Of a stretch of DNA of 64,000 nucleotides, positions 44,624-64,000 are shown in pieces (position 1 is the stretch's first letter; each line of letters opens with the position of its first letter). Source of the DNA: Halopseudomonas salina. GTDB lineage: Bacteria; Pseudomonadota; Gammaproteobacteria; Pseudomonadales; Pseudomonadaceae. The stretch spans positions 110,069 through 174,068 of the forward strand of contig NZ_VTTI01000005.1 of the NCBI RefSeq assembly GCF_008641105.1, written 5' to 3'. The translations under genes were made by a program, and so were the position numbers. The notes beneath the pieces were generated by a model, which saw only the letters and a list, made by a program, of their open reading frames with translations, was not told the DNA's origin and did not search any database.

Positions 44624-47600
44624 TCAGCGCCGGGCGGAGGAGCTTGTAAAGGTGCCCGAATTCGGAAACAGGTTTTCGAGCAATATGGGGCGCCCGATAT
44701 GGTAGCCCTGGGCGTAGTCCACACCAATGGAGCTGACCACGTCGAGAATTTCCGGACTGGAAACAAACTCGGCCACAATCTTCTTGTTCAGGAAGTGGCC
44801 CATTTCAGTGATGGAGCGCACCAGTGCGTAGTCGAAGTTGTCCGTGACGATATTGCGCACGAAAGTGCCGTCGATCTTGATGAAGTCGACCGGTAGACGT
44901 TTGAGGTAGGCATAGGATGATTGGCCCGTGCCGAAATCATCCAGGGAGAAACGGCAACCGATCTCTTTCATCTCGTTGATAAAGTCTGCAGCATCCTCGA
45001 GGTTGTCGATGGCCGCGGTTTCGGTAACCTCGAAGATCAACTTGTCGCGTGGTACATCAAAGCGCACCAGAGAAGCAAAGATAAAGTCGAGGAAGGAGTC
45101 ATCGTTGAGCGAGCACCCCGACAAGTTGATAGAGAAACCGCCAAACTCATCCAGCTCCTCCCTGTGCTCGGCCATCCAGCTGAGCACGGTTTCAATTACC
45201 CACCGATCCACCGCGCCCATTCGATTGTATTCTTCGGCGGCACGGATGAAATCGGCAGGCGGCAGGTGCTCGCCATTCTCGTCTACTACGGTGAGCAGGG
45301 TTTCGTAGTGCATGTCGACTGCCCTGTCGCTCTGGATGGGCTGGATTTTCTGACAGCGGACTTTCAGCAGGCCCTCATCCAGGGCGTGGTTGATGCGGGT
45401 GACCCAGGAAATCACCTCGTCGCGCTCGCGGAAACGGGTGTCACCCGGCTTGATCGTCTGAATATCCCGGTGGCCGGATCTTTTGCTCAGGTCTGCTGCT
45501 GATTCAACTGTTCTCAGCAGCTCCATAGGATCTACGGCATCGCCATCAACAGCCATCATGGCCACAGCGGACTGTATGGTAAAACTGTGCTCACCGCTGA
45601 CAAATCGACTGCGCTCCACAGCGTTTTTAAGCTGCTCGGCGGTCTGATGGTCCGCCTGACGGGATTGGGAGGGAAGAAGCACGCAGAACTGATCAACACC
45701 TACCCGTCCGGCAATAGCCTCCGGTTCCAGTTCAGCCATGATGGTCGCGGCGATATCCCGCAGGAACTGGTCGCCTACCTCATAGCCACAGGTATTGTTG
45801 ATCAGCTTGAACTGCATGATGTCGATGAAAATCAGGATATAGCGGTTCTTTCCTTCCCGAGCCTGGTCGACGCTCTGCGTCAACCAGCGGACAAATTCGC
45901 GGCGGGTGCGCAGGCCGGTCAGCGGGTCGTGCGCGGTTTCCAGCGCCAGCTTGTCATAAACCTTCTGGACCAGCGCGTCGAGCCCCTGTTCGAGGGCCGG
46001 CATGCTCTCGTCGTTGAGGATGCTGAGGCGGCCGTCGCGAAGTCGTTCGGCGACCTCTTCGAGCGTCAGTTCAGCGGCCTTCATACCACGATGGTTGCTG
46101 AATACATAGCGGCTGCACGCTTCGGCGACCCAGGCCAGATAGAGCAGCTGTGGCTCGGAGTCGGGCGCATTGCCTTCCAGCCATTGACCCACTTTCAGGT
46201 TGCGTGCGCGCTTGAGCCACCGTTGCAGCTGACGATCCTGTGCCCCGCCACCAGATGGCTCCTCCTGCAAGGGGCTGACAAACTGCACCTGATTGATTGA
46301 GGGATCATCCGGGTTGGCCAGTAACATTTCCAGGTTGCGCACCAGGGTCTTGTGACCCAGCCCTGAGTGGGGGATCTTTGACAGTCCCTTGGCGATCAGC
46401 CCCAGCAGCTTCTGCGAACTGAAGCGCAGACGGCTCTCGTCGTACGCCCCGGGCACGGTTCGCACCAGTAGTTGATCAATCACTACCAGGGTCATTTCCC
46501 ACGCCAGGCTGGAGACCCCTTCACGCAGGTAGCTGAGACGCATCAGCTCCTTCCAGCCATTATCCACCAGGTCGATTATCGGCTGGGCGACAGGCTGCGA
46601 TCCGAGCAGACGGTACAGCTCCCAGTCAATCAGCAGATTGGCCTGGACGATCCGCTGCTGGCCCTCACAGGCTTCGGTTACACGGGTCAGGTTGCGTTCG
46701 AAAAAGTGTTTTTCACGCCCAACCAGTTCGTCCAGACTTTCCAGAGCACGGGTAAAGCCGCTGTTATCGTCACCCTGGTCCTGCAGAAGGCTGGCAATGG
46801 TGTCGATAATGACGGGGCGGTTCTGGTTGATATTGATGCTGCGTCTGTCTGATAGCAAAGCCAGGTAGTTGACTGTCTGACGCGCCGGGTGAAAGTCTGC
46901 GGAGAACAGAGTCGGGTCCTTGAGCATGACCTTGAGGATCGGAACCTCGAGTTTGCGCAATTCATGTCGGAGGTCTTCGAGCACCCGTTCGTTCTGAACA
47001 ATATTGTCGAACAGTCCTTCGACCATGTCTGCAGAGTCACACTCATGGCTGCTGACCTTGCCATCTATCCCACCGGCTTCAAGCAGATAGCGCTTCAGGG
47101 CGCCGGGTTCATCCAGCCGTGCAGACCCTCTGAGGACGTCATTTTGCACCTGATGCAGCGCATCGAGCACTTCTATCTGGGGAGGACCCGACGGCGTAAT
47201 ATCCTCGACTGCAGGGCGGCTTGTGCCGCTGGGGGCGCCGGACAGATGGCGCTGCATCGACCAGAGACGGGATGCCGCGGTAAAGGCGGCCTTTATACGT
47301 CCGACCGGACTGCTTGCGGGTTGTACCTGGCCGCCAATGCTGGCGAAAGAACCTGTATGGCGGGTGGTGCCCGGGGCGTCCGCGTCGCCCCCGGTTCTTT
47401 GCTCTTCGACGATGGCTGTTGGGGTCAGTGTGGGTGCTGTTGGTTCCTGCGCCGTTGGCACATTGGAAACCCTGTCGGCCTGAGACGGATGCGCATTCTG
47501 GCTGGCCAGGTAGCGACTGACGTTGAGATCGGGCAGCACTCCGGCGTCGATCAGCAGCCCATTGAGTGCCGTATAGACAGCATCAAGCTCCAACAATATG

Positions 47601-48523
47601 ACTTCGTGAAAAACCTGAAAAATCAGCCTTAGTGCCTGGTTGCCCAGATGCAGATGGCGGATTGCATCTGCCAGGGCAAGCCCCAGAGCCGATGGCGAAT
47701 AGGGGTTACTGACCTCGGGAGTCTGCGGGTTCGAGAATGCGGCATCCAGGCGAAGCTGCAATTCGAGCAGTTGTGAACGCAGGTGTAGTTCCGCCTTGGA
47801 AATCGAAACGCGGACCACCAGCCAGTCTTCGAATTCGTCTTTCTCGATCAGAGCCAATGTCGACCGTGTATGTCCGGGCTGTTCGTCAGCGCCCACCTGG
47901 CCAGCCTGCGATATGCCGGTAAGGGCTAGTGCTTCGCTGGTAACCGAGTCGATAACCTGAGATCCGATGCGTGATTCCTGCACGTGCAGCAGGGCTCGGG
48001 CGTCGAGTAGTTTCTGGCGTCCATCGAGTGTTTTGCCTGCATCTGCTTCCTGGCCCAGCACATCGTCCAGGTGCTTGAAAAAGTGCGGCATATGGGTGTC
48101 GAAAAAGCGGCGTACCAACTGGTTTGTGCCGCCTATAAGGCTCGCTTGCCGTGCGTGGGTCAGCGGGCGCTGACCAGGGGTAGGATGCCAGTGCGCACTA
48201 TCGCTCGTTGCGGTTTGTTGCAACATGTCCAGCTGTGGAGGATTGTCCTGATGAAATCGCAGACCAATGCCATTTCCGGAAGCATGGACGATATGGACGG
48301 GGACCTGAGTGCGGTCAGCACCTCTGCCAAACAGAACAGCCGTATTGATAGTGCTGTTATCGACCAGTGCATGCAGCTGCCTTGTGCGACGGACGTCATT
48401 GAGCGAAAGCAGTAGTCCGCCCTGACTGAAATCCTTGATGCAGCAGCCAAAGTCCTCGATTCCATCGACGCGGAAGATGGCATCTATCGAAACACTCTGG
48501 CGCGCGTATCGCCTTTTATCCAC
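44624..48523 (-). CDS. PilZ - DUF1631 - GGDEF(degenerate) - EAL protein, paralogue 1
   Basis: 1299 residues. An N-terminal PilZ domain (about 1-110) has the RxxxR (RRYAR, 4-8) and DFSQGG c-di-GMP-binding motifs. DUF1631 occupies most of 140-850. The GGDEF domain (about 858-1020) has GVDQF at 942-946 in place of GGDEF and no inhibitory RxxD, so cyclase activity is unlikely. The EAL domain (about 1060-1290) keeps Glu1074 (in ETL), Asn1133, Glu1165, Asp1195-Asp1196, Lys1216, Glu1252 and Gln1272, so phosphodiesterase activity is plausible. The GTG start follows AGGA. A paralogue lies 7 kb away beyond prfC and glpD; tatD follows almost at once. Confidence 0.9.
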   Translation of the reverse strand: MDKRRYARQSVSIDAIFRVDGIEDFGCCIKDFSQGGLLLSLNDVRRTRQLHALVDNSTINTAVLFGRGADRTQVPVHIVHASGNGIGLRFHQDNPPQLDMLQQTATSDSAHWHPTPGQRPLTHARQASLIGGTNQLVRRFFDTHMPHFFKHLDDVLGQEADAGKTLDGRQKLLDARALLHVQESRIGSQVIDSVTSEALALTGISQAGQVGADEQPGHTRSTLALIEKDEFEDWLVVRVSISKAELHLRSQLLELQLRLDAAFSNPQTPEVSNPYSPSALGLALADAIRHLHLGNQALRLIFQVFHEVILLELDAVYTALNGLLIDAGVLPDLNVSRYLASQNAHPSQADRVSNVPTAQEPTAPTLTPTAIVEEQRTGGDADAPGTTRHTGSFASIGGQVQPASSPVGRIKAAFTAASRLWSMQRHLSGAPSGTSRPAVEDITPSGPPQIEVLDALHQVQNDVLRGSARLDEPGALKRYLLEAGGIDGKVSSHECDSADMVEGLFDNIVQNERVLEDLRHELRKLEVPILKVMLKDPTLFSADFHPARQTVNYLALLSDRRSININQNRPVIIDTIASLLQDQGDDNSGFTRALESLDELVGREKHFFERNLTRVTEACEGQQRIVQANLLIDWELYRLLGSQPVAQPIIDLVDNGWKELMRLSYLREGVSSLAWEMTLVVIDQLLVRTVPGAYDESRLRFSSQKLLGLIAKGLSKIPHSGLGHKTLVRNLEMLLANPDDPSINQVQFVSPLQEEPSGGGAQDRQLQRWLKRARNLKVGQWLEGNAPDSEPQLLYLAWVAEACSRYVFSNHRGMKAAELTLEEVAERLRDGRLSILNDESMPALEQGLDALVQKVYDKLALETAHDPLTGLRTRREFVRWLTQSVDQAREGKNRYILIFIDIMQFKLINNTCGYEVGDQFLRDIAATIMAELEPEAIAGRVGVDQFCVLLPSQSRQADHQTAEQLKNAVERSRFVSGEHSFTIQSAVAMMAVDGDAVDPMELLRTVESAADLSKRSGHRDIQTIKPGDTRFRERDEVISWVTRINHALDEGLLKVRCQKIQPIQSDRAVDMHYETLLTVVDENGEHLPPADFIRAAEEYNRMGAVDRWVIETVLSWMAEHREELDEFGGFSINLSGCSLNDDSFLDFIFASLVRFDVPRDKLIFEVTETAAIDNLEDAADFINEMKEIGCRFSLDDFGTGQSSYAYLKRLPVDFIKIDGTFVRNIVTDNFDYALVRSITEMGHFLNKKIVAEFVSSPEILDVVSSIGVDYAQGYHIGRPILLENLFPNSGTFTSSSARR

Positions 48524-52026: not shown

Positions 52027-55000
52027 CTATGGCTCCAGATGTGGGCCGGGGACGCCCAGATGGTCCAGGAGCACCGGCAAACCGTGGACATGGCCCTGAG
52101 CGTAGTCGACACCAATCGCCGTGACCGTCGCCAGTATTTCCTGGTTGGATACGTGTTCAGCCACCACCTGCTTTTGCAGGTAATGACCCATCTCGGTAAT
52201 GGAGCGCACCAGGGCAAAATCCACATCGCTGCTGGTGATATCCCGTATGAAAGTGCCGTCGATCTTGATGAAATCCACTGGTAGCCGCTTGAGGTAGGAA
52301 TAGGACGATTGGCCTACACCGAAATCGTCCAGGGAAAAACGACAGCCGATACTGCGCATTTCAGCGATGAAGTCCGCGGCGTCTTCAAGATTGGCGACGG
52401 CGGTACTTTCGGTTATTTCGAAGATCAGCTTGTCGCGGGGTACCTGGTAGCGCACCAGGGCGTCAAATATGAAATCCAGAAAGGTCTCGTCGTTCATCGA
52501 GTGTCCGGACAGATTGATTGAAAAACCGCCAGACAGGCGCAATTGCTCAGGGTGCTCCATCATCCAGCGCAGGACAGTCTCGATAACCCAGCGATCTACC
52601 GAGCCCATGCGGTTATAGTCTTCTGCTGCTTTGATAAAGCCAGCCGGTGGCATGTGTTCGCCCTGGTCATCGATGACGGTCAGCAGGACTTCGTAGTGGG
52701 GCAGTTTCTGGCCACCAGCGCCGGCCAGCGGGGCGATCATCTGACAGCGCAGTTTCAGATTGTCGTCGTCAAGGGCGCGGTTTATGCGCGTAACCCAGGT
52801 CATGACCTCATCCAGCTGTTCGAGTCGCCCATCGCCGGGTAGTACCACCTGGATATCCTTGGAGCCGGCTCGTTTGGACAGCTCCGAGGCCGTTTCGACC
52901 GAGCGCAGGAGCTCCATGACCTTCTTGTTGCGGTGATCAAAACCGAGCATCGCGATGGCAGCGTGGATGACAAAACTCTGGCCGTTTTCGACAAAACGGT
53001 TGGTTTCTATCGCTGACTTGATCTCCACCGCAAGGCGGTAACCCAGGCTGTCTGAGGGCACCGGCAGCAACAGGGCGAACTGGTCTGCACCTACCCGGCC
53101 AATAATGGTCTCTTTCTCTTTCTCTTTCTCTTTCTCTGTGACAAGGTTTCCCGCGGTGCCAGCAATGGATCGCAGGCGTTCGGCAAGCTCGCGAAGAAAC
53201 CGGTCCCCGGCTTCGTAGCCACAGGTATTGTTAATGACCTTGAACTGCTGGATGTCGATAAAAATCAGCGTATAGGTCTGTGTGGCTTGGCTGGCCCTCT
53301 CAACGCATTGGGCCAGGCGGCGTGAGAATTCCTTGCGGGTCTGCAGTCCGGTCAACTGGTCGTGGGAAGAGTCAAACGCCAGCTTGTCATACATTTTCTG
53401 GATCAGTGCATCCAGCCCCTGATCCACTGCGGGCAGGGCAGCCTCATGCATCGGCTCCAGACTGCCGTCACGCAGGCGCCTGGCAACGTCATCGAGGGGC
53501 AGGGCGAGACTGCGGGTACCCTGGCGGTTGGCGAACATGAACTGGTCGGTGTCCTCTGCTACCCACAACAACTGCAGCAGTTGGGTTGGAGTTGACTCTG
53601 ATGTGACCTCAAACCATTGCCCGGTTTCCAGTGCCCGCGCGCGCTTTAGCCAGCGCAGGAGATGCTCATCAGTATCTGTCTGTTCAGCCAGACGTTTTTC
53701 CAGAACCTCGCTGTCCAGCTCGGCACCGGTGTAGTGCGCCATCGGGGTTGTAGGGGTGATGCCGGTATCTAGCAGGACACGCAGTGAGTCTGTGAGCGCA
53801 TCCCTGGAATCTGTCCCCTGGGACACCCTGGACAGTCCGCAGGCCACGGGTTCGATCAGCTCGCTCGCGGAGCCTGCGGGTAGCTGATCAGGAGCACGCT
53901 CGGGTTGCAGGTACAGAAGAATCGCCTGAAGCGCCTCGATGGTATCAGCAAACTCCTTGCTGTCAGCGCCCTGGCGTAGACATGCCAGGCGCATGTATTC
54001 CCGCCAGCCCTGCTCCACAATATCTAGAATGACTATGGGTATGGCCCGGTCCAGCATGTACGTCAGCTCGCGTTCGACCCGTCGTGTGGCCTGAGTCAGG
54101 CGTTGCTGACCAGTGCATTTTTCCCTGATGCGCTGTCGGTTCCGATCGATGATGCGTTGCTCACGCAGCACCAGTTCCTCCAGTGCGGGCAATGCCTGGA
54201 CGAACCCGTCGACATCGTCTTCGCTTCCCAGAATCTGTTGAATGGACTGACGGATCGGTTGGCGATTGGCGGTCAGGTTGATGCTGTCCTGATCCACCAG
54301 CAGCGCCAGATGGTTCATGGCCTGGCGGGCAGGGTGGGCGGGTGCATTGAACAGCTCGGGATCTGTCAGCATGATCCGCAACAGGGGGATTTGCAGGCTG
54401 TGCAGATCGTCCTGCAGGTCGTCGGCTACCCTTTCGCTGCTGGCGATGCTCTGGAACAGACCCTCGATCATCTCCACTGCGTCCAGCTCGCGCTCACACA
54501 TCATATGACCCGCCGGCGCCGCATCAAGCAGTTGCTGCCTTAGTGACAGGGGTCTGTAAACCGCGGCTGTATTCAGTAGTCGCGCCTTCATGTTTCCAAG
54601 CGCCAGCATCGTCAGCACAGCGCTTTGTTCATCAAATTCAGGCATTTCTGCCGCGGCATCCGCGGGCGCGTACCACGCCGAGTTTGAATCGGAGCGGCGG
54701 TGCAGGGAATTGAGCCGGGTGACAACATTGAATGCACTGGCAGGCACTCGGGGTGACGAATCGGCGGTTCCCGGCTGGTCTGCTACCTGGGGCTTGTCTG
54801 GTGGTATCTCTGTTGGGCCCAGCTGGCGTGGTAGCTCGTTGTGCGTGGCTTCGGAGCGCGCCTGGTCGGCCAGGTAGCGGTTCACATCCAGGCGTGGCAG
54901 CACCCGGGCCTCGGTAAACAGGGTGTTCAGTTCGGTGTAAATCCCCGGCAGCTTGTCCAGAATATGGCTTTGAAACACGCGAAACACCACTTCTAGCACG

Positions 55001-55893
55001 GCATTTTTCAGGCCCAGGGGGCGGATGACCTCGGACAGGGTGTGGCACAAGGCGGCGGGAGAGAAGGGGTTGAACAGCCGATGCCCGGTTTTACTCGCAA
55101 AAGCAGCATCAATGCGCAGCTGCAGTTCGATCATCGCTTCGCGCACCTGGGAGTCTGCGCGCGAAACTGCCACTCGAACAACCAGCCAGTCCTCGAAGTC
55201 CTCTTTTTCCACCAGCTCCAGCGTGTTGCTCGCTGCCGGTTCGCGCGCCATCGGTTGCTTTGCGGCCTGATTGCCGGATGCGGCGTTCAGAACGGCTTGG
55301 TTTAGACGATTAACCACGGCAAGTAATACGCGTGGTCGTTGCCTGCGCAGTAGCGCAACAGCATCAAAAAACGGCTGCTGAGCATTCTGGTTTTTTTGAC
55401 GGTCGGTTTCGAGCACCAGTGCCCCTTCCAGCTGGTCAAAATAGCCGGGAAGCTGAAGTTCGAGAAAACGACCGAACAGGCTTTGCGCCGCTCTGGCGAG
55501 CGTTTCTTTCTCTGCCGGATCCAGCATTTTGCTGGGGCCGGATGCAGTCTGGTTGGCTGTGCTTGCCGAGTTGTCGGCCAGCCCGGCAGCGCACTGCAAG
55601 GCGTAATAATGATCACTGCCGGGGTTAAGGAGGCGCAGGCCGGCGCCCTGGTCGGTAACCCGTGCGAGCTCGACCTCAAGTACTGTGCTGCGGCCTGCGC
55701 TGGTAAGGTGCAACTGCCCTGTAAGCGGTTGCTCGAGGGCGTGCTGGCCAAGTGAGTTCAATGCCTGCCTGCTTAGGCTGGCAAGTACGCCTGTCTGGCT
55801 GAAATCGCGGACCACGCAGGGATAATGGCTATGCAACAAGCTGAGTCGGGCATTGAATCTGGCGGCCTTTCTTGGCCAACTTCTCTTTTCCAT
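52027..55893 (-). CDS. PilZ - DUF1631 - GGDEF(degenerate) - EAL protein, paralogue 2
   Basis: 1288 residues with the same order as its paralogue. PilZ (about 1-110) has RSWPR (4-8) and DFSQTG, so c-di-GMP binding is expected. DUF1631 spans about 120-830. The GGDEF domain has GADQF (935-939) and no RxxD. A Lys-Glu repeat (residues 920-928) encoded by a hexanucleotide repeat sits just before it. EAL (about 1055-1285) keeps Glu1068, Asp1189-Asp1190, Glu1246 and Gln1266. The start MEKRSWPRKAARF is chosen by alignment with the paralogue. The gene is divergent from pelA, and the two share a regulatory region with a FleQ box. A role in setting c-di-GMP for Pel is inferred. Confidence 0.9.
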   Translation of the reverse strand: MEKRSWPRKAARFNARLSLLHSHYPCVVRDFSQTGVLASLSRQALNSLGQHALEQPLTGQLHLTSAGRSTVLEVELARVTDQGAGLRLLNPGSDHYYALQCAAGLADNSASTANQTASGPSKMLDPAEKETLARAAQSLFGRFLELQLPGYFDQLEGALVLETDRQKNQNAQQPFFDAVALLRRQRPRVLLAVVNRLNQAVLNAASGNQAAKQPMAREPAASNTLELVEKEDFEDWLVVRVAVSRADSQVREAMIELQLRIDAAFASKTGHRLFNPFSPAALCHTLSEVIRPLGLKNAVLEVVFRVFQSHILDKLPGIYTELNTLFTEARVLPRLDVNRYLADQARSEATHNELPRQLGPTEIPPDKPQVADQPGTADSSPRVPASAFNVVTRLNSLHRRSDSNSAWYAPADAAAEMPEFDEQSAVLTMLALGNMKARLLNTAAVYRPLSLRQQLLDAAPAGHMMCERELDAVEMIEGLFQSIASSERVADDLQDDLHSLQIPLLRIMLTDPELFNAPAHPARQAMNHLALLVDQDSINLTANRQPIRQSIQQILGSEDDVDGFVQALPALEELVLREQRIIDRNRQRIREKCTGQQRLTQATRRVERELTYMLDRAIPIVILDIVEQGWREYMRLACLRQGADSKEFADTIEALQAILLYLQPERAPDQLPAGSASELIEPVACGLSRVSQGTDSRDALTDSLRVLLDTGITPTTPMAHYTGAELDSEVLEKRLAEQTDTDEHLLRWLKRARALETGQWFEVTSESTPTQLLQLLWVAEDTDQFMFANRQGTRSLALPLDDVARRLRDGSLEPMHEAALPAVDQGLDALIQKMYDKLAFDSSHDQLTGLQTRKEFSRRLAQCVERASQATQTYTLIFIDIQQFKVINNTCGYEAGDRFLRELAERLRSIAGTAGNLVTEKEKEKEKETIIGRVGADQFALLLPVPSDSLGYRLAVEIKSAIETNRFVENGQSFVIHAAIAMLGFDHRNKKVMELLRSVETASELSKRAGSKDIQVVLPGDGRLEQLDEVMTWVTRINRALDDDNLKLRCQMIAPLAGAGGQKLPHYEVLLTVIDDQGEHMPPAGFIKAAEDYNRMGSVDRWVIETVLRWMMEHPEQLRLSGGFSINLSGHSMNDETFLDFIFDALVRYQVPRDKLIFEITESTAVANLEDAADFIAEMRSIGCRFSLDDFGVGQSSYSYLKRLPVDFIKIDGTFIRDITSSDVDFALVRSITEMGHYLQKQVVAEHVSNQEILATVTAIGVDYAQGHVHGLPVLLDHLGVPGPHLEP
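53109..53137. repeat. Hexanucleotide microsatellite within the EAL gene
   Basis: The hexamer TCTCTT (AAGAGA on the coding strand) is repeated 4.8 times without error. It encodes Glu-Lys repeated four times plus a Glu, just before the degenerate GGDEF motif. Because the unit is 6 bp, changes in copy number keep the reading frame and add or remove Lys-Glu pairs. The paralogue has no such tract at the same point. Confidence 0.95.
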
Positions 55894-55958
55894 GACGACA
55901 CCCAAGGGGACTATAGACGAAGACGGTCTTATGCGGGTTTTGTCTCTCACGCGGGACT

Positions 55959-55976
55959 GTAATCTTGCTAGATTAC
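55959..55976. promoter_or_regulatory. 18-bp palindrome between pelA and the EAL gene
   Basis: GTAATCTTGCTAGATTAC is a 7-bp perfect inverted repeat with a 4-bp centre. It lies 66 bp upstream of the EAL gene start and about 20 bp from the FleQ box. Its form suggests an operator; the protein is unknown. Confidence 0.5.
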
Positions 55977-55995
55977 TGTGAGTACGAATTAATTT

Positions 55996-56009
55996 GTTAA
56001 TTTATTGAC
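55996..56009. promoter_or_regulatory. Probable FleQ box in the pelA promoter region
   Basis: On the minus strand this reads GTCAATAAATTAAC, which agrees with the published FleQ consensus GTCaNTAAAtTGAC at every fixed position except one (A for G). FleQ controls pel in Pseudomonas aeruginosa, repressing without and activating with c-di-GMP. The site lies 135 bp upstream of the pelA ATG and about 40 bp upstream of a candidate -10. The consensus is from memory of the FleQ literature; binding is inferred. Confidence 0.65.
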
Positions 56010-56046
56010 GCATGTGTTGTGATACTTTTCACAGGTGTTAGTATTT

Positions 56047-56055
56047 TGGCATAAT
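56047..56055 (+). promoter_or_regulatory. Extended -10 of the pelA promoter
   Basis: TGGCATAAT forms an extended -10 element with no good -35 at normal spacing, so activation by a bound regulator is plausible. Predicted transcription starts near 56062, leaving a leader of about 80 bases before the pelA ATG. The same TGGCATAAT string occurs ahead of pckA. Confidence 0.5.
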
Positions 56056-56143
56056 AGCAGTTAGCTATATTTTGTGGCGACAATGTGAACCGTTTCATAA
56101 AGTGACAGTCGGATTGTTGCCTATGCAAAATCAAGGGATTGGA

Positions 56144-58978
56144 ATGATAGATTGTAGTTTTCGCCAGTTAGCAGTCAGTATCGGTAAGCCTTTCGGGCTC
56201 CTGATTACCCTTTTCCTGTCGCTTTTCGCAATGGCTGGCCTGGTGAGAGCCGAAGCCGGTGCTTCTGCTCCTGCTAGCGTGGCTTTCTGGTACGCAGAGC
56301 AACCGCCCCTGTCGGAATTGTCCCAGTTTGATTGGGTCGTGTTCGAACCGGCACACGTGTCTGCAGCAGACGTCCTTTTCGTTACCGCGCAGGGCTCAGA
56401 GCCATTTGCCTATCTTTCCGTAGGTGAGCTTGATGAGCACCAGGCTCAACTGGATCCTGGTCTGCGCGACGAGGCAGCCAGTGAGGCGCGCAACGATAGC
56501 TGGAACAGTAGCGTGATGGATCTCACCAGCCCACGCTGGCGTAATCACCTTCTCGAGCGGGCCTCAGACTACGCTCGTCTGGGCTACAGCGGTTTGTTCC
56601 TTGATACCTTGGACAGCTTTACTCTCCTTCCCGAAGACCGACGCGCAGCCCAACGTTCCGCACTATTAAGTGTTTTGCAGGAAATAAATCGGCTTCATCC
56701 GCAACTCAAACTGTTTTTCAATCGGGGTTTTGAAGTACTTCCCGATATGCATAAGGGTGTTGCAGCCGTTGCAGTTGAATCCATTCATGCGGGCTGGAAT
56801 GCCCGCAATCGGGCTTATAGTCCGGTGCCGGAAGAAGATCGCGCCTGGTTAGTCAATGCACTGCAGCCGCTGCGTGAGCGGGGCATTCCTATCGTTGCCA
56901 TTGATTATCTGCCCACCGACCGTCGTGAAGAGGCACGGGAGCTGGCCGGTCGTCTCGTGGACGAAGGTTATGTCCCATATGTGGGGACGCCCGAGCTGGC
57001 AACGCTCGGTGTGAGCAGCATCGAAGTACAGCCCCGCCGCATTGCGCTGCTCTATGATCCCCGCGAAGGCGAGCTCACCCGAAGTGGGGGCTTCAGGTCT
57101 CTCGGCGGCTTGCTTGAGTACATGGGTTACCGCATTGATTACATGCCGGTGGATGATTCTCTTCCTGCCTCCTCGATGACCGGGCTCTATGCAGGGGCCA
57201 TTATCTGGATGACCTCTGGCGCGCCGCCTGAAAGTGGCAAATTCAACAGGTGGATACTCAACCGGATGGAGGAGGGTATTCCGCTGGCATTCTTTCAGGG
57301 CCTGCCGGTAGATGACGCTGCCATTCTCAACAAATTCGGCCTGCAGCGTAATGGTGATCAGCCGGCTTCTGGCCTGAAAATGGTCAGCCATGACCCGCTG
57401 CTTATCGGTGAGTTCGAAGCCCCCCTGATCGTGCGTTCGCGGGGAATGATTGCCATCGGCACTCAATCGGCGTCCAGTTCAGACCACGCAGCTCTGGTGC
57501 TGGTTGACGACAATGGCCGCGAGCATACCCCTGTAGTGACGGGTGACTGGGGTGGTATAGCGCTGGCGCCCTACGTATTCGAGGGTGAGGACGACACCCG
57601 TCGCTGGATTGTAGACCCCTTCGCTTTTCTGCAAAAAGCCCTGCAGCTGGCCCCGTTTCCGGCCCCTGATGCGACCACTGAAAATGGCCGTCGAATCGCC
57701 ACAGTGCACATCGACGGGGATGGCTTCCCGTCCCGTGCTGAAGTGCCCGGGACTCCCTACGCCGGCACCATTGTGCTGAACGATTTCATCAAGCCCTACC
57801 CACTGCTGACCTCGGTGTCCTTTATTGAAGGTGAGGTAGGACCCAAGGGAATGTACCCCTATCTGGCTCGCGAACTTGAGCCTATCGCCCAACGCATACT
57901 CGCCCATGGGCGCGTGGAGCCGGCTACCCACACCTACAGCCACCCCTACTTCTGGCAGGCCGAGAGAGAAATCCAGCGTGAGGGTTTTCAGGCTGACTAC
58001 GGTCTGATGATGCCAATCCCGGGCTATGACACGATCGATTTTCAACGGGAAGTCATCGGTTCGCGCGATTATGTGCAGAGTCGGCTGGCTCCGGCGGACA
58101 AACCGGTCAACATGATCTTCTGGACTGGCGACGCGATCCCCGATGCTGCAACGATCAAGCTCGCCTACGACGCCGGCATGTTGAACGTCAACGGTGGAGA
58201 GACCCGGCTGACCCGTGCGGATCCCTCGCTGACCGGGTTGTATCCGCTGCTGCGTCCGACTTCAGGTGGGCTGCAGGTTTTCGCCCCCATCATCAACGAA
58301 AACGTCTACACCAATTTGTGGCAGGGGCCCTACTACGGCTTCCGCGATGTGATAGATACCTTCGAACTGACCGACTCGCCGCGACGCATGCGCGGTCTGC
58401 ACCTTTACTACCATTTCTACTCCGGTACCAAGCCGGCGGCGATCAAGGTAATGGGTGATATCTATCGACATATGCTCGATCAGGAGCCGATATCCCTGTG
58501 GATGAGTGAGTATCTGATGCGGGCCCATGGTCTGCACACAGCTTCCCTGGCCCGCGCCTCAAATGGCAAATGGCACATCAGCGCGCTGCAGGGCTTGCGT
58601 ACGGTACGGATTGATCCGGATATGGGGTGGCCAGACATGTTGGCCTCCACAGGGGTTGCAGGTGTGATTGACCTCCCGCAGGGCCGTTACGTCCATCTCA
58701 GTGATAATCGTGCAGTGCTCGCGCTGCAAGCCGTTCGCGACTCTGCTCCGGCCCTTGAAGAGGCCAATGTCCCCTTGACTGCCTGGCGGTATCTCGACGC
58801 CCGGCGGGTTGAACTTTCATTTGCCGGTGAGTTTCCCATCGCCTTCTCTGTCCGCTCCTCGTCCGCCTGTCGCCTAAATGTCGGTGGTCGGAAGATCAGC
58901 GGTCGTGCGGCAAATGGGCTCTGGCATTTTTCCCTATCGACTAAACAGGTGAGTGATGCGCAACTCGTCTGCGAGTAA
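56144..58978 (+). CDS. pelA: Pel polysaccharide hydrolase/deacetylase PelA
   Basis: Periplasmic PelA partly deacetylates and trims the cationic Pel exopolysaccharide. The 944-residue protein has a signal peptide (FGLLITLFLSLFAMAGLVRAEA near 15-36), then a TIM-barrel glycoside hydrolase domain (about 40-300; SIHAGWNARNRAY). A Rossmann-like region follows, then the deacetylase domain with Asp524 in HIDGDGFPSR and His596/His600 in THTYSHPYFW, matching the catalytic triad of P. aeruginosa PelA. AAGGGA lies before the chosen ATG, which gives the usual length; the open frame extends 24 codons upstream. Its end overlaps pelB. Confidence 0.95.
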   Translation: MIDCSFRQLAVSIGKPFGLLITLFLSLFAMAGLVRAEAGASAPASVAFWYAEQPPLSELSQFDWVVFEPAHVSAADVLFVTAQGSEPFAYLSVGELDEHQAQLDPGLRDEAASEARNDSWNSSVMDLTSPRWRNHLLERASDYARLGYSGLFLDTLDSFTLLPEDRRAAQRSALLSVLQEINRLHPQLKLFFNRGFEVLPDMHKGVAAVAVESIHAGWNARNRAYSPVPEEDRAWLVNALQPLRERGIPIVAIDYLPTDRREEARELAGRLVDEGYVPYVGTPELATLGVSSIEVQPRRIALLYDPREGELTRSGGFRSLGGLLEYMGYRIDYMPVDDSLPASSMTGLYAGAIIWMTSGAPPESGKFNRWILNRMEEGIPLAFFQGLPVDDAAILNKFGLQRNGDQPASGLKMVSHDPLLIGEFEAPLIVRSRGMIAIGTQSASSSDHAALVLVDDNGREHTPVVTGDWGGIALAPYVFEGEDDTRRWIVDPFAFLQKALQLAPFPAPDATTENGRRIATVHIDGDGFPSRAEVPGTPYAGTIVLNDFIKPYPLLTSVSFIEGEVGPKGMYPYLARELEPIAQRILAHGRVEPATHTYSHPYFWQAEREIQREGFQADYGLMMPIPGYDTIDFQREVIGSRDYVQSRLAPADKPVNMIFWTGDAIPDAATIKLAYDAGMLNVNGGETRLTRADPSLTGLYPLLRPTSGGLQVFAPIINENVYTNLWQGPYYGFRDVIDTFELTDSPRRMRGLHLYYHFYSGTKPAAIKVMGDIYRHMLDQEPISLWMSEYLMRAHGLHTASLARASNGKWHISALQGLRTVRIDPDMGWPDMLASTGVAGVIDLPQGRYVHLSDNRAVLALQAVRDSAPALEEANVPLTAWRYLDARRVELSFAGEFPIAFSVRSSSACRLNVGGRKISGRAANGLWHFSLSTKQVSDAQLVCE

Positions 58979-61900
58979 ATCCGTTCGGCTGGTCAGCCCC
59001 TGGACGCTCGCGTTTTCCGCTGCGGCAATAGGCGGTGTCCTGGTGTTGACCTACAACAGTGAGGACGTATTCCTCCCTGACGAGCAGGAGCGAGCCGACG
59101 ATGTGTCAGCGAGCTACGCCGAGGTTCTTCTCGCTTCACGACCTGAAGATGACGAGTTGCGGCTTGATCTGGTTCAGCTGCTGGTCGACCTGGGACAGTA
59201 CAGCCGCGCGCGACGTCACCTGCTGGGCTGGGAAAATCCAGATGTCGGCCAGATGGAATACTATCGGCTGAAGATTGATGCGCTCAGTGCACTGCACGGC
59301 CAGGATCCGAGTCGCTTGGAGCCAGCCCGTGCCCAGTTGATGGCATACGACCACCGGCAGTTGTCGGTGGAGCAGGCGCGTCACTGGGCAGACCTTGCGC
59401 TGCGCATGGAAATGCCCTGGTTGGCGGCTGACGTTTACCACTCGCTCGCACTTCGAGTACCGGAAGAGCACTTGCCTTACCTCAAGCGTGCTGCTCGCTG
59501 GTATCTGGCAAGCAACCAGTCTGGCAAGGCGGCGATGGTCTATCTGGATATCCTTGCAGCCAGCGAAGAGGTAGAGGATCGCCGATATTATCTGCGCCGC
59601 GCCTATGATGCACTGCTGGCTGTTGGTGCCGGTGATCAGGCTTCCAGACTGCTGGTCAGGGAGCGCGCCGAGCTGACTGATACCGAAGCGGACGCCGCCT
59701 GGCTCAAGCAGGGCGTTCAGATGGCAGTGGGTAGCCAGCGAATGGACCTTGCAGCCATTCTTGTCGCCCGCTGGCGTGAGCTTCAGCCCTATAGTGCAGA
59801 ACCAGTCGACGCTCAGTTTCGCCTGGAGCTCGCCCAGGGCAACCTGCGTGAAGCCTGGGAAACTGGTGATCTGCTGCTGGCTCTGCGCCCCGAAGATCCG
59901 GACCTTCTGCGCCAGATGGCTCAACTTGGAGAATGGCTTGGTAATAGCCGCGCGGCCCTGGATTACTGGACTCAATACCTGAATTTGCGCGAGGATCCCC
60001 AGGCCCGCGAACACGCCTGGCGCCTGGCTTTTCAGTTATACGATTACCAGCAGGGGATAGCCCTGCTTGAGCCAACCGCGGGCGATCGCAGGCTCTCTGA
60101 AGAGAAGCTCGATGCGCTGGTATTCGGTTATGAGTCGCTGGGTCAGCCCGCACGCACCGAAGCCTGGTTGCGCCAGTATCTTCGCAGTTATCCCAGCCAT
60201 CGCATGGCCTGGGTGCGTCTTCTGCAGAATCTGGAGCACACTCAGCAGTTCGAGGCACAGACCGCCGTCTGGGATGACATGGCCAGCCGCTTTGAGCTGA
60301 GCACTACCGAACGAATTGAATGGGCCAGCGCCTACTGGCGCATTTATCAGCCCGAGCGCGCCTGGGATATTCTCGATATCGACAACCGTAATATCGATGA
60401 CCCTGAATACTGGCGGACCCTGGCTGGCCTCGCGTGGGAGCTCGAGCGTGACGACGAGTTGCGCAATGCCTACGAGCGAATGCTCGAGAAGGGCATTGCT
60501 CTGAACAGTGGTGAAGAGAGCGACCTGATCGAGCTCTATCGCCTGGAGCAGCCGCGCAAGGCGCTGGAGATGCTTCTGGCAGGCTGGCGCGAGCGGGGCG
60601 ATCCAGGTTACCTGGTGATGGCGCTGGATATGGCTATCGTCCTGGGCGATATCGATCTTCTGCGTACCCTGCTAGCCGAGGCAGATGAACAACCCTCGGT
60701 GGCGCTCCGTCCTCAGGTCATGCTGGCCAGAGGCTGGCTGGCAGAGCGCGATGGCGATCTTGATACCGCGACGCGTATCTACCGTTCTGCCCTCGCCAGG
60801 TATCCAGGCAGCCCCTTGGTGCGCGAACGTTTGATGTGGTTCTTCATCGATCACCGTCGCACTGCAGACCTGCCTTTGATGACCCATCGCTGGCGAGCCT
60901 TTGCACGTCGTAACGGGAATATGTGGCTACCTTTTGCCGCCGCCAATCAGATGCTCGGCAGGCACGAAGAGGCCCTTGCGTGGTATCGCATGCACCTGCG
61001 CGCCAACCCCTACGACTGGCTTGCCCGAGCTGCTTACGTTGATGGCCTGGAAGCGGCGGAGCGTTTCGATCTGGCCCAGCGTCTACGCCACCAGTTGGTA
61101 GAGGAGTTCGAGACGCGCCCGGGCGATGCACCCCGTATGGCATTCGAATCGCCTGAAGTGGCGCCCCAGCGTTACGCAGTGTGGCTGCGCCTGTTGGCGG
61201 CCAGTCATTCGGGTCTGCGTTCAGAGAAGCAGGCCATGCAGTGGCAGGACGGTTCGCCGGCAATGTTGCAACTCTGGTTCGACCGCATGCTGACCCAACT
61301 GGATATTATCAACCAGCCGTCGCAGAAAGACGCCTGGCAAGCCTGGGGTCGAAGTCATGGCCTGGATATCAATGCTTATCACAGCATGCAGGAAGCTCTG
61401 CGTAACTATAACCGTGACATGCTCACCAAGCTGGTTGCCACGGGCGAACTTGATCCGGCTCAGAACGTCGAGGCGCTAGACCGCCTGGGCGAGGAGAGTA
61501 CCGCCTTAGGCCTTGCACTGAGCCACTTGGGCGGCGGCAACCCGACTATTGTCGATCAGCAACTGCGTCGACAGGCCGTGGATATCCAGTCACGTATTCC
61601 CCAAGGCGCACGGATCGGCTGGCGCCGCGAAGACCTGGGGGGTGTCGAGCTCAGTGGCACCCACGCGACCATCGCCGGCAATGTCGCCGATGACTGGTAC
61701 ACCAGCGTTGATCTCGAGCGCCTGAACTACAAGGCTGACGACCTCGATAGCAGCGTACTGGGTACGGAAAAGAATGCCCGCGTCACCCTGAGCCGCAAGC
61801 TGGAAGACGGGCGTATTGCCTTGACAGTAGATAGCAGCAGCCGCGCCGATGAGGATCGTGTTGGCGTAGGCGCCTCGCGCACCTGGCAGTTGGGTGGGCG

Positions 61901-62546
61901 TGACCAGCTTGAAGTGGGTCTGGGTTGGAATCAGGAGAGCCTCGACAGCGGTTTCATGCGTGCCGTCGGTACCCAGGACTCGATCTACGTAGCCGGTATT
62001 CACGGATTTTCAGCACGAGATCAGCTTTCCTGGTCGATTGAACAGCGCGCCTACGGCACTCGTTATGGGCATAGCCTGGGTAACGGCACCGCCTTCAATA
62101 TCGAGTTCAACCAGATCCAACGTTTTGAAGGGCCGACATGGGTGGCACGGGCAGGTATCGACTATCAGCGCAACAATCTGAGCCGTCGGCAGCTTGACGA
62201 CCTTACCGTGGCAGATGGCGGACCAGTGGAGTTCGACGTGATAGAAGCGTCAGGACTCTTGCAGGAAGAGTACGGCCGGTTGTACGCCGGTACTTCATGG
62301 CGCAGGGGCTTCCCCGGCGCACTCAACCGTGGCCAGCCTGAGTACACATGGCTGGTGGACGTACAGGCGGGGTGGGACTGGGTTGATAGCCAGTTCACCT
62401 ACGGTCTGAGCACCGGGGTCGGTTCGCGGGTCCTCGGTGATGACGAGCTGGCGTTGACCTTTGGTTATCAGTCGGAGCCGCGAGGCACCGATGCGGAGGC
62501 TGGCGGCATTCTGGAACTGACTTATAGCAAGAGATTCGGACGCTGA
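58956..62546 (+). CDS. pelB: Pel export protein PelB (TPR scaffold and outer-membrane porin)
   Basis: PelB guides Pel polymer through the periplasm and out through a beta-barrel. The 1196-residue protein has a membrane anchor near 15-35 (LAFSAAAIGGVLVLTY), a long array of TPR-like helices (about 50-870) and a C-terminal beta-barrel with alternating polar and aromatic residues ending in Phe-Gly-Arg (about 880-1196). AGGTGAG lies just ahead of adjoining GTG and ATG codons; I use the ATG. It starts inside the end of pelA, indicating translational coupling. Confidence 0.95.
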   Translation: MRNSSASKSVRLVSPWTLAFSAAAIGGVLVLTYNSEDVFLPDEQERADDVSASYAEVLLASRPEDDELRLDLVQLLVDLGQYSRARRHLLGWENPDVGQMEYYRLKIDALSALHGQDPSRLEPARAQLMAYDHRQLSVEQARHWADLALRMEMPWLAADVYHSLALRVPEEHLPYLKRAARWYLASNQSGKAAMVYLDILAASEEVEDRRYYLRRAYDALLAVGAGDQASRLLVRERAELTDTEADAAWLKQGVQMAVGSQRMDLAAILVARWRELQPYSAEPVDAQFRLELAQGNLREAWETGDLLLALRPEDPDLLRQMAQLGEWLGNSRAALDYWTQYLNLREDPQAREHAWRLAFQLYDYQQGIALLEPTAGDRRLSEEKLDALVFGYESLGQPARTEAWLRQYLRSYPSHRMAWVRLLQNLEHTQQFEAQTAVWDDMASRFELSTTERIEWASAYWRIYQPERAWDILDIDNRNIDDPEYWRTLAGLAWELERDDELRNAYERMLEKGIALNSGEESDLIELYRLEQPRKALEMLLAGWRERGDPGYLVMALDMAIVLGDIDLLRTLLAEADEQPSVALRPQVMLARGWLAERDGDLDTATRIYRSALARYPGSPLVRERLMWFFIDHRRTADLPLMTHRWRAFARRNGNMWLPFAAANQMLGRHEEALAWYRMHLRANPYDWLARAAYVDGLEAAERFDLAQRLRHQLVEEFETRPGDAPRMAFESPEVAPQRYAVWLRLLAASHSGLRSEKQAMQWQDGSPAMLQLWFDRMLTQLDIINQPSQKDAWQAWGRSHGLDINAYHSMQEALRNYNRDMLTKLVATGELDPAQNVEALDRLGEESTALGLALSHLGGGNPTIVDQQLRRQAVDIQSRIPQGARIGWRREDLGGVELSGTHATIAGNVADDWYTSVDLERLNYKADDLDSSVLGTEKNARVTLSRKLEDGRIALTVDSSSRADEDRVGVGASRTWQLGGRDQLEVGLGWNQESLDSGFMRAVGTQDSIYVAGIHGFSARDQLSWSIEQRAYGTRYGHSLGNGTAFNIEFNQIQRFEGPTWVARAGIDYQRNNLSRRQLDDLTVADGGPVEFDVIEASGLLQEEYGRLYAGTSWRRGFPGALNRGQPEYTWLVDVQAGWDWVDSQFTYGLSTGVGSRVLGDDELALTFGYQSEPRGTDAEAGGILELTYSKRFGR

Positions 62547-62575
62547 TTATGTTATTCAAACAGGAGAGATTCATC

Positions 62576-63091
62576 ATGCAATCGAGAGCGGGCCTGGCCC
62601 TCATACTGGCACTCACTGTGGTGACCGGCTGTAGTACCTTCACTGGCAAAAGTGGCGAAGCGCTGCCGCGTGACGCCCGCTGGGGGCTTGTACCCCTGGT
62701 GAACTATTCACAGACACCGCAGGCGGGTGAGCGTAGCGAGCAGATATTGCTCAGCGTTCTCAGTCAGCGCGGCCTGCAGCCAATTGTCTATCCCAAGACA
62801 GAGCAGGAAACCATGCTGTTTGATGATAGCGAACGTCTGGCTGCTGGTATGGAGTGGGCGCAGCGCCAGGGTTTCGACTACGTGATCAGCGGTAGTGTCG
62901 AGGAATGGCAGTACAAGAGTGGTCTGGATGGTGAGCCTGCGGTTGGTATCAGTCTGCGCGTACTGGAGCCAGTAACTGGCCGCGTTATCTGGAGCAATAG
63001 CGGAGCCAGGGCTGGCTGGTCGCGCGAAAGCCTTTCCGGTAGCGCCCAGAAAGTACTGCGTGAGCTCACCGACGACCTGCGGCTGGAATAA
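62576..63091 (+). CDS. pelC: Pel outer-membrane lipoprotein PelC
   Basis: 171-residue lipoprotein with signal peptide MQSRAGLALILALTVVTGC and acylated Cys19. PelC forms a periplasmic dodecameric funnel that helps load Pel polymer into PelB. AGGAGA lies eight bases before the ATG; an ATG nine codons upstream has poorer support. It overlaps the pelD start by one base. Confidence 0.94.
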   Translation: MQSRAGLALILALTVVTGCSTFTGKSGEALPRDARWGLVPLVNYSQTPQAGERSEQILLSVLSQRGLQPIVYPKTEQETMLFDDSERLAAGMEWAQRQGFDYVISGSVEEWQYKSGLDGEPAVGISLRVLEPVTGRVIWSNSGARAGWSRESLSGSAQKVLRELTDDLRLE

Positions 63092-64000
63092 TGTCAACTG
63101 AATCCCCGTACAAGGACTTCACCCTCGCGGCGCGTGCCAGTGAACTCGCAGCCTGGGTTGAAACAGTCCTACTAACCGCACTGGCGATCGGTCTGGGCAT
63201 TTATTTCGTGCCGGAAGATCCATTGCAGGTGTATGAGTTTACCTGGCCGATGTTGGCACCGTTGCTGGTGGGACTGCGTTACGGGTTCGTCAAGGCGCTG
63301 GTCAGTGCCTGTCTTCTCGTTGCAGCATTGCTGTTGCTGCGCGAGTCGGGTCTGGAGGCATATCAGCGAATGCCGGGCGCCTGGATCATCGGCATGCTGG
63401 TAATCAGCATGGTGGTCGGTGAATTTCGGGATCTCTGGGATCGTCGGCTGCAGCGATTGCAGATGGCCAATGAATATCGTCAGTACCGGCTGGATGAATT
63501 TACCCGGGCGCATCAGATACTGCGTATTTCCCATGACCGGCTGGAACTGCGGGTTGCGGGCAGTGACCAGAGTCTGCGCAGCTCTTTGCTGATACTCCGT
63601 GAGCGTCTGCGTGAACTGAAGCCTCAGGGTGATCCGCTGGTAGCCATGGCGCAACCCATCATGGCCTTGCTGGGACAATATGGCTCATTGAGTATCGCCG
63701 GTCTGTACGCGATCAAGGACGGGCAGATGCAATCCCGTGCACTGGCCACCCTCGGCGATATGGACGAGCTGGATCCTGAAGATCGTATGATAAAGCTGTG
63801 TCTTGAGCAGGGCGAACTGATCAGTATTCGTGAAGAATTTCTCGAACGCGGTGATCAGGAGCAGTTTTCTTCGCTTCAGGTGTGTGTACCGCTGATCGAT
63901 ACCGAGGATAACTTGCTTGGCATCCTGGCGATCCGGCAAATGCCGTTCTTCGTCTTCAACGACCGTACTCTCAGTCTGTTGGCGCTCCTGGCTGGCCACG
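63091..64000 (+). CDS. pelD: Pel c-di-GMP receptor PelD (5' part; runs off the window)
   Basis: The first 303 codons are open, starting MSTESPYKDFTLAARASEL, and the gene continues past the window edge. Four hydrophobic segments lie near residues 20-110 (VETVLLTALAIGLGIYF, MLAPLLVGLRYGF, ACLLVAALLLL, WIIGMLVISMVV). A coiled stretch and a GAF domain (about 170-303) follow. PelD binds c-di-GMP through the inhibitory RxxD site of a degenerate GGDEF domain, but that C-terminal part is outside the window and was not seen. PelE, PelF and PelG would be expected next. Confidence 0.92.
   Translation, partial: MSTESPYKDFTLAARASELAAWVETVLLTALAIGLGIYFVPEDPLQVYEFTWPMLAPLLVGLRYGFVKALVSACLLVAALLLLRESGLEAYQRMPGAWIIGMLVISMVVGEFRDLWDRRLQRLQMANEYRQYRLDEFTRAHQILRISHDRLELRVAGSDQSLRSSLLILRERLRELKPQGDPLVAMAQPIMALLGQYGSLSIAGLYAIKDGQMQSRALATLGDMDELDPEDRMIKLCLEQGELISIREEFLERGDQEQFSSLQVCVPLIDTEDNLLGILAIRQMPFFVFNDRTLSLLALLAGH

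Follow-up and report, generated by a model that had tools for sequence, protein, structure and literature searches.

A FleQ-type box before pelA and a divergent PilZ-DUF1631-GGDEF-EAL gene in Halopseudomonas: probably two back-to-back promoters linked through cyclic di-GMP

When pelA, which serves the synthesis of the biofilm polysaccharide Pel, and the gene of a putative cyclic di-GMP (c-di-GMP) phosphodiesterase are read in opposite directions from one short intergenic region, are they under a single switch or under two neighbouring promoters? The question is raised by a 64-kb stretch of Halopseudomonas salina DNA (contig NZ_VTTI01000005.1; the window, meaning the whole stretch analysed), in which pelA faces a divergent PilZ-DUF1631-GGDEF-EAL gene, here labelled EALa, across a gap of 250 bp, from the EALa ATG, which ends at 55893 on the minus strand, to the pelA ATG, which starts at 56144 on the plus strand. 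An earlier note on this DNA had given the same interval (55894..56143), which is correct, and the same gene pair, which is borne out by the match of PelA to the solved structure 9cgy and by the Pfam domains of EALa, and had suggested that one region controls both genes through the c-di-GMP-responsive regulator FleQ. Our analysis points instead to two independent promoters placed back to back, with that of EALa probably independent of the FleQ-type box, and to a feedback that would run through the c-di-GMP pool; we give this reading a probability of about two in three.

The box, GTTAATTTATTGAC, was compared with the FleQ consensus GTCAATNNATTGAC (GTCAAT-NN-ATTGAC, from the available part of PMC10723142), which has 12 defined positions and two free bases. 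With one mismatch, it agrees at 11 of the 12 defined positions; the box announced earlier is therefore real, but its "13-of-14" score had counted the two free bases. Scanning the region with the FleQ motif, a check that the earlier note had proposed, returned this near-perfect box as the only one in the 64 kb, on both strands, to reach one mismatch or fewer, where 0.10 is expected; one or more such sites arose in 9 of 100 shuffles of the whole window. Within the 300 bp before pelA, none of 500 dinucleotide shuffles equalled one mismatch. Two-mismatch sites alone mean little, because, when up to two mismatches are allowed, 2 sites are seen in the window and 1.6 are expected.

The predicted pelA start is about 60 bp downstream of the box. 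The extended -10 towards pelA that had been noticed before is recovered as part of a predicted promoter (TTCACA-16-CATAAT, 10 of 12 matches), with the extended -10 itself, TGGCATAAT, at 56047-56055; the promoter scan gave 6 promoter-like sites in 451 bp, compared with 0.8 expected from shuffles. Just past the pelA -10, GCAGTTAGCTAT (56057-56068) is identical in the window and in the two loci described next. The TTGGCAT stretch was also considered as a sigma-54 promoter and rejected, its spacing being wrong for one as judged by eye.

A PelA search of genome contigs identified two loci with EALa divergent from pelA, one in H. laoshanensis (L002, genome G002; PelA 78% identical to that of the window) and one in a metagenome-assembled genome (L001, genome G001; 77%), in which EALa runs off the contig. 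The position-matched site is separated from the pelA ATG by 134 bp in the window, 130 bp in L001 and 134 bp in L002, whereas the corresponding distances to the EALa ATG are 102, 107 and 242 bp, so that a fixed placement is kept for pelA and broken for EALa. The left half of the site is eroded in L001 and L002, where only TTTTTTTGAC is kept.

We then considered 16 pelA regions, those of the window and of 15 genus genomes, with the pelA start codons of the 13 other genomes chosen by us. Scored by their best match within 300 bp, three regions have 1 mismatch, three have 2, four have 3 and six have 4. (A/T)TTGAC stands 36-37 bp before an extended -10 in 7 of the 16 (0-3 per 1000 shuffles each), by a pattern that allowed 36-40 bp and was designed after seeing the data; in L002 the spacing of these elements is 35 bp, which the pattern excludes. 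Among 22 further Pseudomonadaceae pelA regions (from 54 matched genomes of 298), 10 have at most two mismatches, including G275, one of at least four (with G218, G269 and G169) whose upstream DNA looks coding by eye; one genome of this set has two boxes 50 bp apart. From these comparisons we assign the box to a pelA promoter type that is already known, in which the left half-site changes quickly. The earlier note had looked to relatives for conservation of both box and gene pair, and each is conserved in part: boxes with at most two mismatches occur, besides the window, at five genus pelA genes that have another neighbour, but only a half-site is left in L001 and L002, which bear the pair, and the pair was not found within the fetched flanks of the other 13 genus pelA loci.

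The retention of TTTTTTTGAC alone in L001 and L002, together with the TTGACG found 16 bp before CATACT in G035 and G010, a -35-like arrangement, could mean that FleQ does not act at this site, which would instead be an AT-rich stretch with a kept TTGAC, serving as part of the basal promoter or of a site for another regulator. We regard this explanation as doubtful, given the failure of all 500 shuffles to reach one mismatch in 300 bp and the occurrence, in five pelA regions that are more distant, of boxes with 1-2 mismatches; these precede an extended -10 by 36 bp, too much for a -35 element.

On the other side of the gap, EALa does not depend on the company of pel. prfC is found within the fetched stretch of the EAL gene in 18 of 22 genomes, and the usual company of this gene is therefore prfC, not pel. 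Three genus genomes (G014, G015 and G026) have EALa and its paralogue EALb with no pelA match, and none of them has a box with up to three mismatches upstream of EALa (205 bp in G014, 400 bp in the others). In G015, a response-regulator gene (named from sequence) is followed by 188 bp and then by the EALa ATG, whereas in G002 the corresponding distance is 12.6 kb, with the pel operon in between; the aligned flanks of the two genomes agree at 93-99%. Counting upstream from the EALa ATG, 128 of 130 bases agree between G015 and G002, followed by 27 of 90, and the position-matched site of G002 falls about 110 bp outside this common block. The EALa-adjacent DNA is thus the same with and without pel, which argues that it is independent of pel, and we infer that the EALa promoter lies most simply within it. 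The box likely switches pelA alone, because EALa also occurs without pel and probably keeps its own promoter. In G015, EALa is split into two frames and EALb has no stop (L056, 5577-9424).

These comparisons bear directly on the control proposed earlier, in which one FleQ-responsive region would drive pelA and EALa, and FleQ with c-di-GMP would also induce the phosphodiesterase as a negative feedback. The single box 102 bp from EALa in the window, the pair kept in both closest loci and a minus-strand promoter-like site with TG that overlaps the pelA -10 (56080-56051) are all in line with it. We nevertheless rate shared divergent control as unlikely, considering the varying distance of the box to EALa beside its steady distance to pelA, the lack of a box at EALa in the three pel-less genomes and the near identity of EALa-proximal DNA in G002 and G015. 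That the capture of a pel operon next to a PilZ-sensing EAL protein has given rise to a self-limiting biofilm switch in the lineage of the window, with one FleQ box controlling both Pel and a neighbouring enzyme that drains the signal by which FleQ and PelD are activated, appears improbable.

Several observations weigh against two independent promoters with a working box before pelA. The sites of L001 and L002 have 4 mismatches, which is chance level (p 0.55 and 0.61), and 10 of the 16 genus pelA regions are without a box at two mismatches or fewer. The second box, which in Pseudomonas aeruginosa covers the start site (available part of PMC10723142), has here only a weak 4-mismatch counterpart, GTTAGTATTTTGGC, which may be a chance match. 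The promoter scan gave no EALa promoter within the 102 bp next to EALa in the window (55894-55995), and its minus-strand hits fall on the pelA side, one of them overlapping the pelA -10. For EAL genes not beside pel, 3-mismatch sites occur upstream in 5 of 25 regions (G013, G003, G015b, G002b and G001b; p 0.06-0.13). fleQ, whose absence would have spoken against the earlier note, was found in each of the 37 genus genomes, a set that does not include the window's own genome. Finally, the arginine of the ExLxR motif, which 9 of 61 sequences have, is threonine in EALa as well as EALb, and c-di-GMP hydrolysis by EALa is for this reason not certain.

The protein features of EALa are otherwise favourable to an action on c-di-GMP. 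The eight residues that we take to form the EAL catalytic and metal site (E, N, E, D, D, K, E, Q) are kept in EALa and in 61 of 61 sequences, so the earlier suggestion that the divergent gene degrades c-di-GMP gains from these residues and loses from the missing arginine. The PilZ motifs are intact, and EALa likely binds c-di-GMP through this domain. The GGDEF site is degenerate, reading GADQF in EALa and GVDQF in EALb in place of the GG(D/E)EF signature. A model of EALa residues 1-830 (predicted local distance difference test, pLDDT, 80.0; predicted template modelling score, pTM, 0.48) had no Foldseek match at E <= 0.001; this whole-length model barely probes the long helical part, aside from PilZ and a predicted small SH3/Tudor-like barrel at residues 745-816, the end of DUF1631 before GGDEF.

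The readers of c-di-GMP also appear to be in place. The FleQ protein of G001 matches solved FleQ over residues 28-505. PelD of L001 and L002 carries an RGLD motif, matched by eye to R367/D370 of P. aeruginosa PelD, where c-di-GMP binding requires R367, D370 and R402 (available part of PMC2170427); this agrees with the role of c-di-GMP receptor that the earlier note gave to PelD. By analogy with P. aeruginosa, FleQ-FleN would repress pelA when c-di-GMP is low and activate it when c-di-GMP is high, while EALa would be read from a separate promoter adjacent to it, probably independent of the FleQ-type box. The pel operon would have been gained in the gap before EALa, or kept there where relatives lost it, and pelA and EALa would adjoin because the operon lies in that gap. 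EALa would bind c-di-GMP via PilZ and hydrolyse it via EAL, lowering c-di-GMP and hence Pel output whatever its promoter does. Feedback on Pel would then depend on the c-di-GMP pool, which FleQ and PelD read, and on no shared switch. This feedback is plausible because the EAL residues, bar the ExLxR arginine, and the PilZ motifs are intact, and it is the part of the earlier idea most likely to be real.

Within the genus, pelA is found in 15 of 37 genomes; a sixteenth match, in G017 (E 2.4e-4, 77 residues), was dropped. At least 21 of the 37 have a full-length gene of the EALa/EALb type, and G010 has a truncated one. The two genes are adjacent in 2 of the 15 pelA genomes, or 3 of 16 counting the window. 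The other 13 have no EALa/EALb relative in the fetched flanks, and by our reading of the sequence (L074-L086) their pelA genes lie in three other neighbourhoods, as if pel were mobile, or often lost and regained. The neighbour names (dusA-like, alpha/beta hydrolase, ABC permease) were read from sequence with no family search, and in G022 and G003 the open reading frame picked is not the true neighbour, to judge from the similar layout in close relatives. The pelA frame has one stop codon each in L016 (G025) and L019 (G003), through sequencing error or decay.

The pel proteins of the window are about equally alike to those of G002 (78, 82, 91 and 90% identity) and G001 (77, 89, 93 and 91%), whereas TatD (63% and 72%, respectively) and EALb (59% and 81%) are not. 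Either pel stood next to EALa in the ancestor and was lost from G026, G014 and G015, or it arrived there more than once. EALa and EALb form two old paralogues in the tree, with the same branching in this clade; the two copies are kept as neighbours in six genomes. Relatives with PilZ, DUF1631, GGDEF and EAL occur widely in Pseudomonadales: in an order sample of 341 genomes, 73, among them G002, have a strong relative of EALa (E <= 1e-100), 18 have pelA (E <= 1e-60) and five have both (G002, G332, G444, G482 and G539), side by side only in G002 and next nearest in G482, about 72 kb apart on one contig. In a class sample, searched only for EALa, 23 of 321 have a relative.

The features of the locus are collected in Table 1. 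From 43.8 to 55.9 kb the minus strand carries, in rising coordinates, TatD, EALb, prfC, glpD and EALa, and the plus strand carries pelA, pelB, pelC and the start of pelD, inside which the window ends. No family was over the cut-off for pelC and the pelD start, whose names rest on order and likeness to L001 and L002.

Table 1 Coordinates of genes and predicted elements in the window
Feature	Position	Strand	Length	Remarks
EALb, second PilZ-DUF1631-GGDEF-EAL gene	44624-48523	-	1299 aa	beyond prfC
EALa, PilZ-DUF1631-GGDEF(degenerate)-EAL	52027..55893	-	1288 aa	each domain over Pfam cut-off
EALa-adjacent DNA, inferred site of EALa promoter	55894..55995	-	102 bp	G002/G015 comparison
FleQ-type box GTTAATTTATTGAC	55996..56009	+		134 bp before pelA ATG, 102 bp before EALa ATG
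Predicted pelA promoter, sigma-70-like	56028..56055	+		TGG before CATAAT (extended -10)
Weak second FleQ-like site GTTAGTATTTTGGC	56037..56050	+		4 mismatches, 41 bp from box
pelA	56144..58978	+	944 aa	match to solved PelA 9cgy, residues 43-943, E=0
pelB	58953..62546	+	1197 aa	PelB C-terminal barrel and TPR
pelC (62549-63091) and start of pelD	62549..63999	+	first 303 aa of pelD	order, likeness to L001/L002

In the open-licence literature we found no description of the pelA-EALa pair, by title or abstract, and no paper joining DUF1631, PilZ and c-di-GMP, or PacR, Pseudomonas and c-di-GMP. If EALa acts on c-di-GMP near pel, the function of the widespread PilZ-DUF1631-EAL architecture would become directly testable. 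More generally, the layout of two divergent genes can hint at a feedback circuit even where a comparison with relatives that lack the pair speaks against it.

The earlier note, too, knew of no description of this gene pair next to pel, but a c-di-GMP enzyme gene beside pel is known from bifidobacteria, whose pel clusters contain a gene for a dual diguanylate cyclase/phosphodiesterase (available part of PMC7112168). Those clusters are Gram-positive and the dual gene replaces the DUF4832 gene, according to the same part of that source, whereas here the gene is of the PilZ-DUF1631-GGDEF-EAL type, divergent, and found beside pel in one Halopseudomonas lineage. The BifA-FliA loop of Pseudomonas putida likewise places a phosphodiesterase in a FleQ/c-di-GMP feedback, but it runs via the flagellar cascade and FliA and, as far as the available part of PMC5026340 describes it, has no promoter in common with a polysaccharide operon. 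The closest likeness is to the FleQ-FleN pel promoter of P. aeruginosa, where the same GTCAAT-NN-ATTGAC box lies upstream of a sigma-70 pelA promoter and where the available description (PMC10723142) does not mention a divergent EAL gene; FleQ is likewise present in the Halopseudomonas genomes. These findings extend the FleQ-pelA promoter type to Halopseudomonas, in which pel neighbourhoods vary and the box tends to stay with pelA, and we conclude that the promoter studied here belongs to this known type and was placed, by gain or loss of pel, next to an EAL gene that can do without pel.
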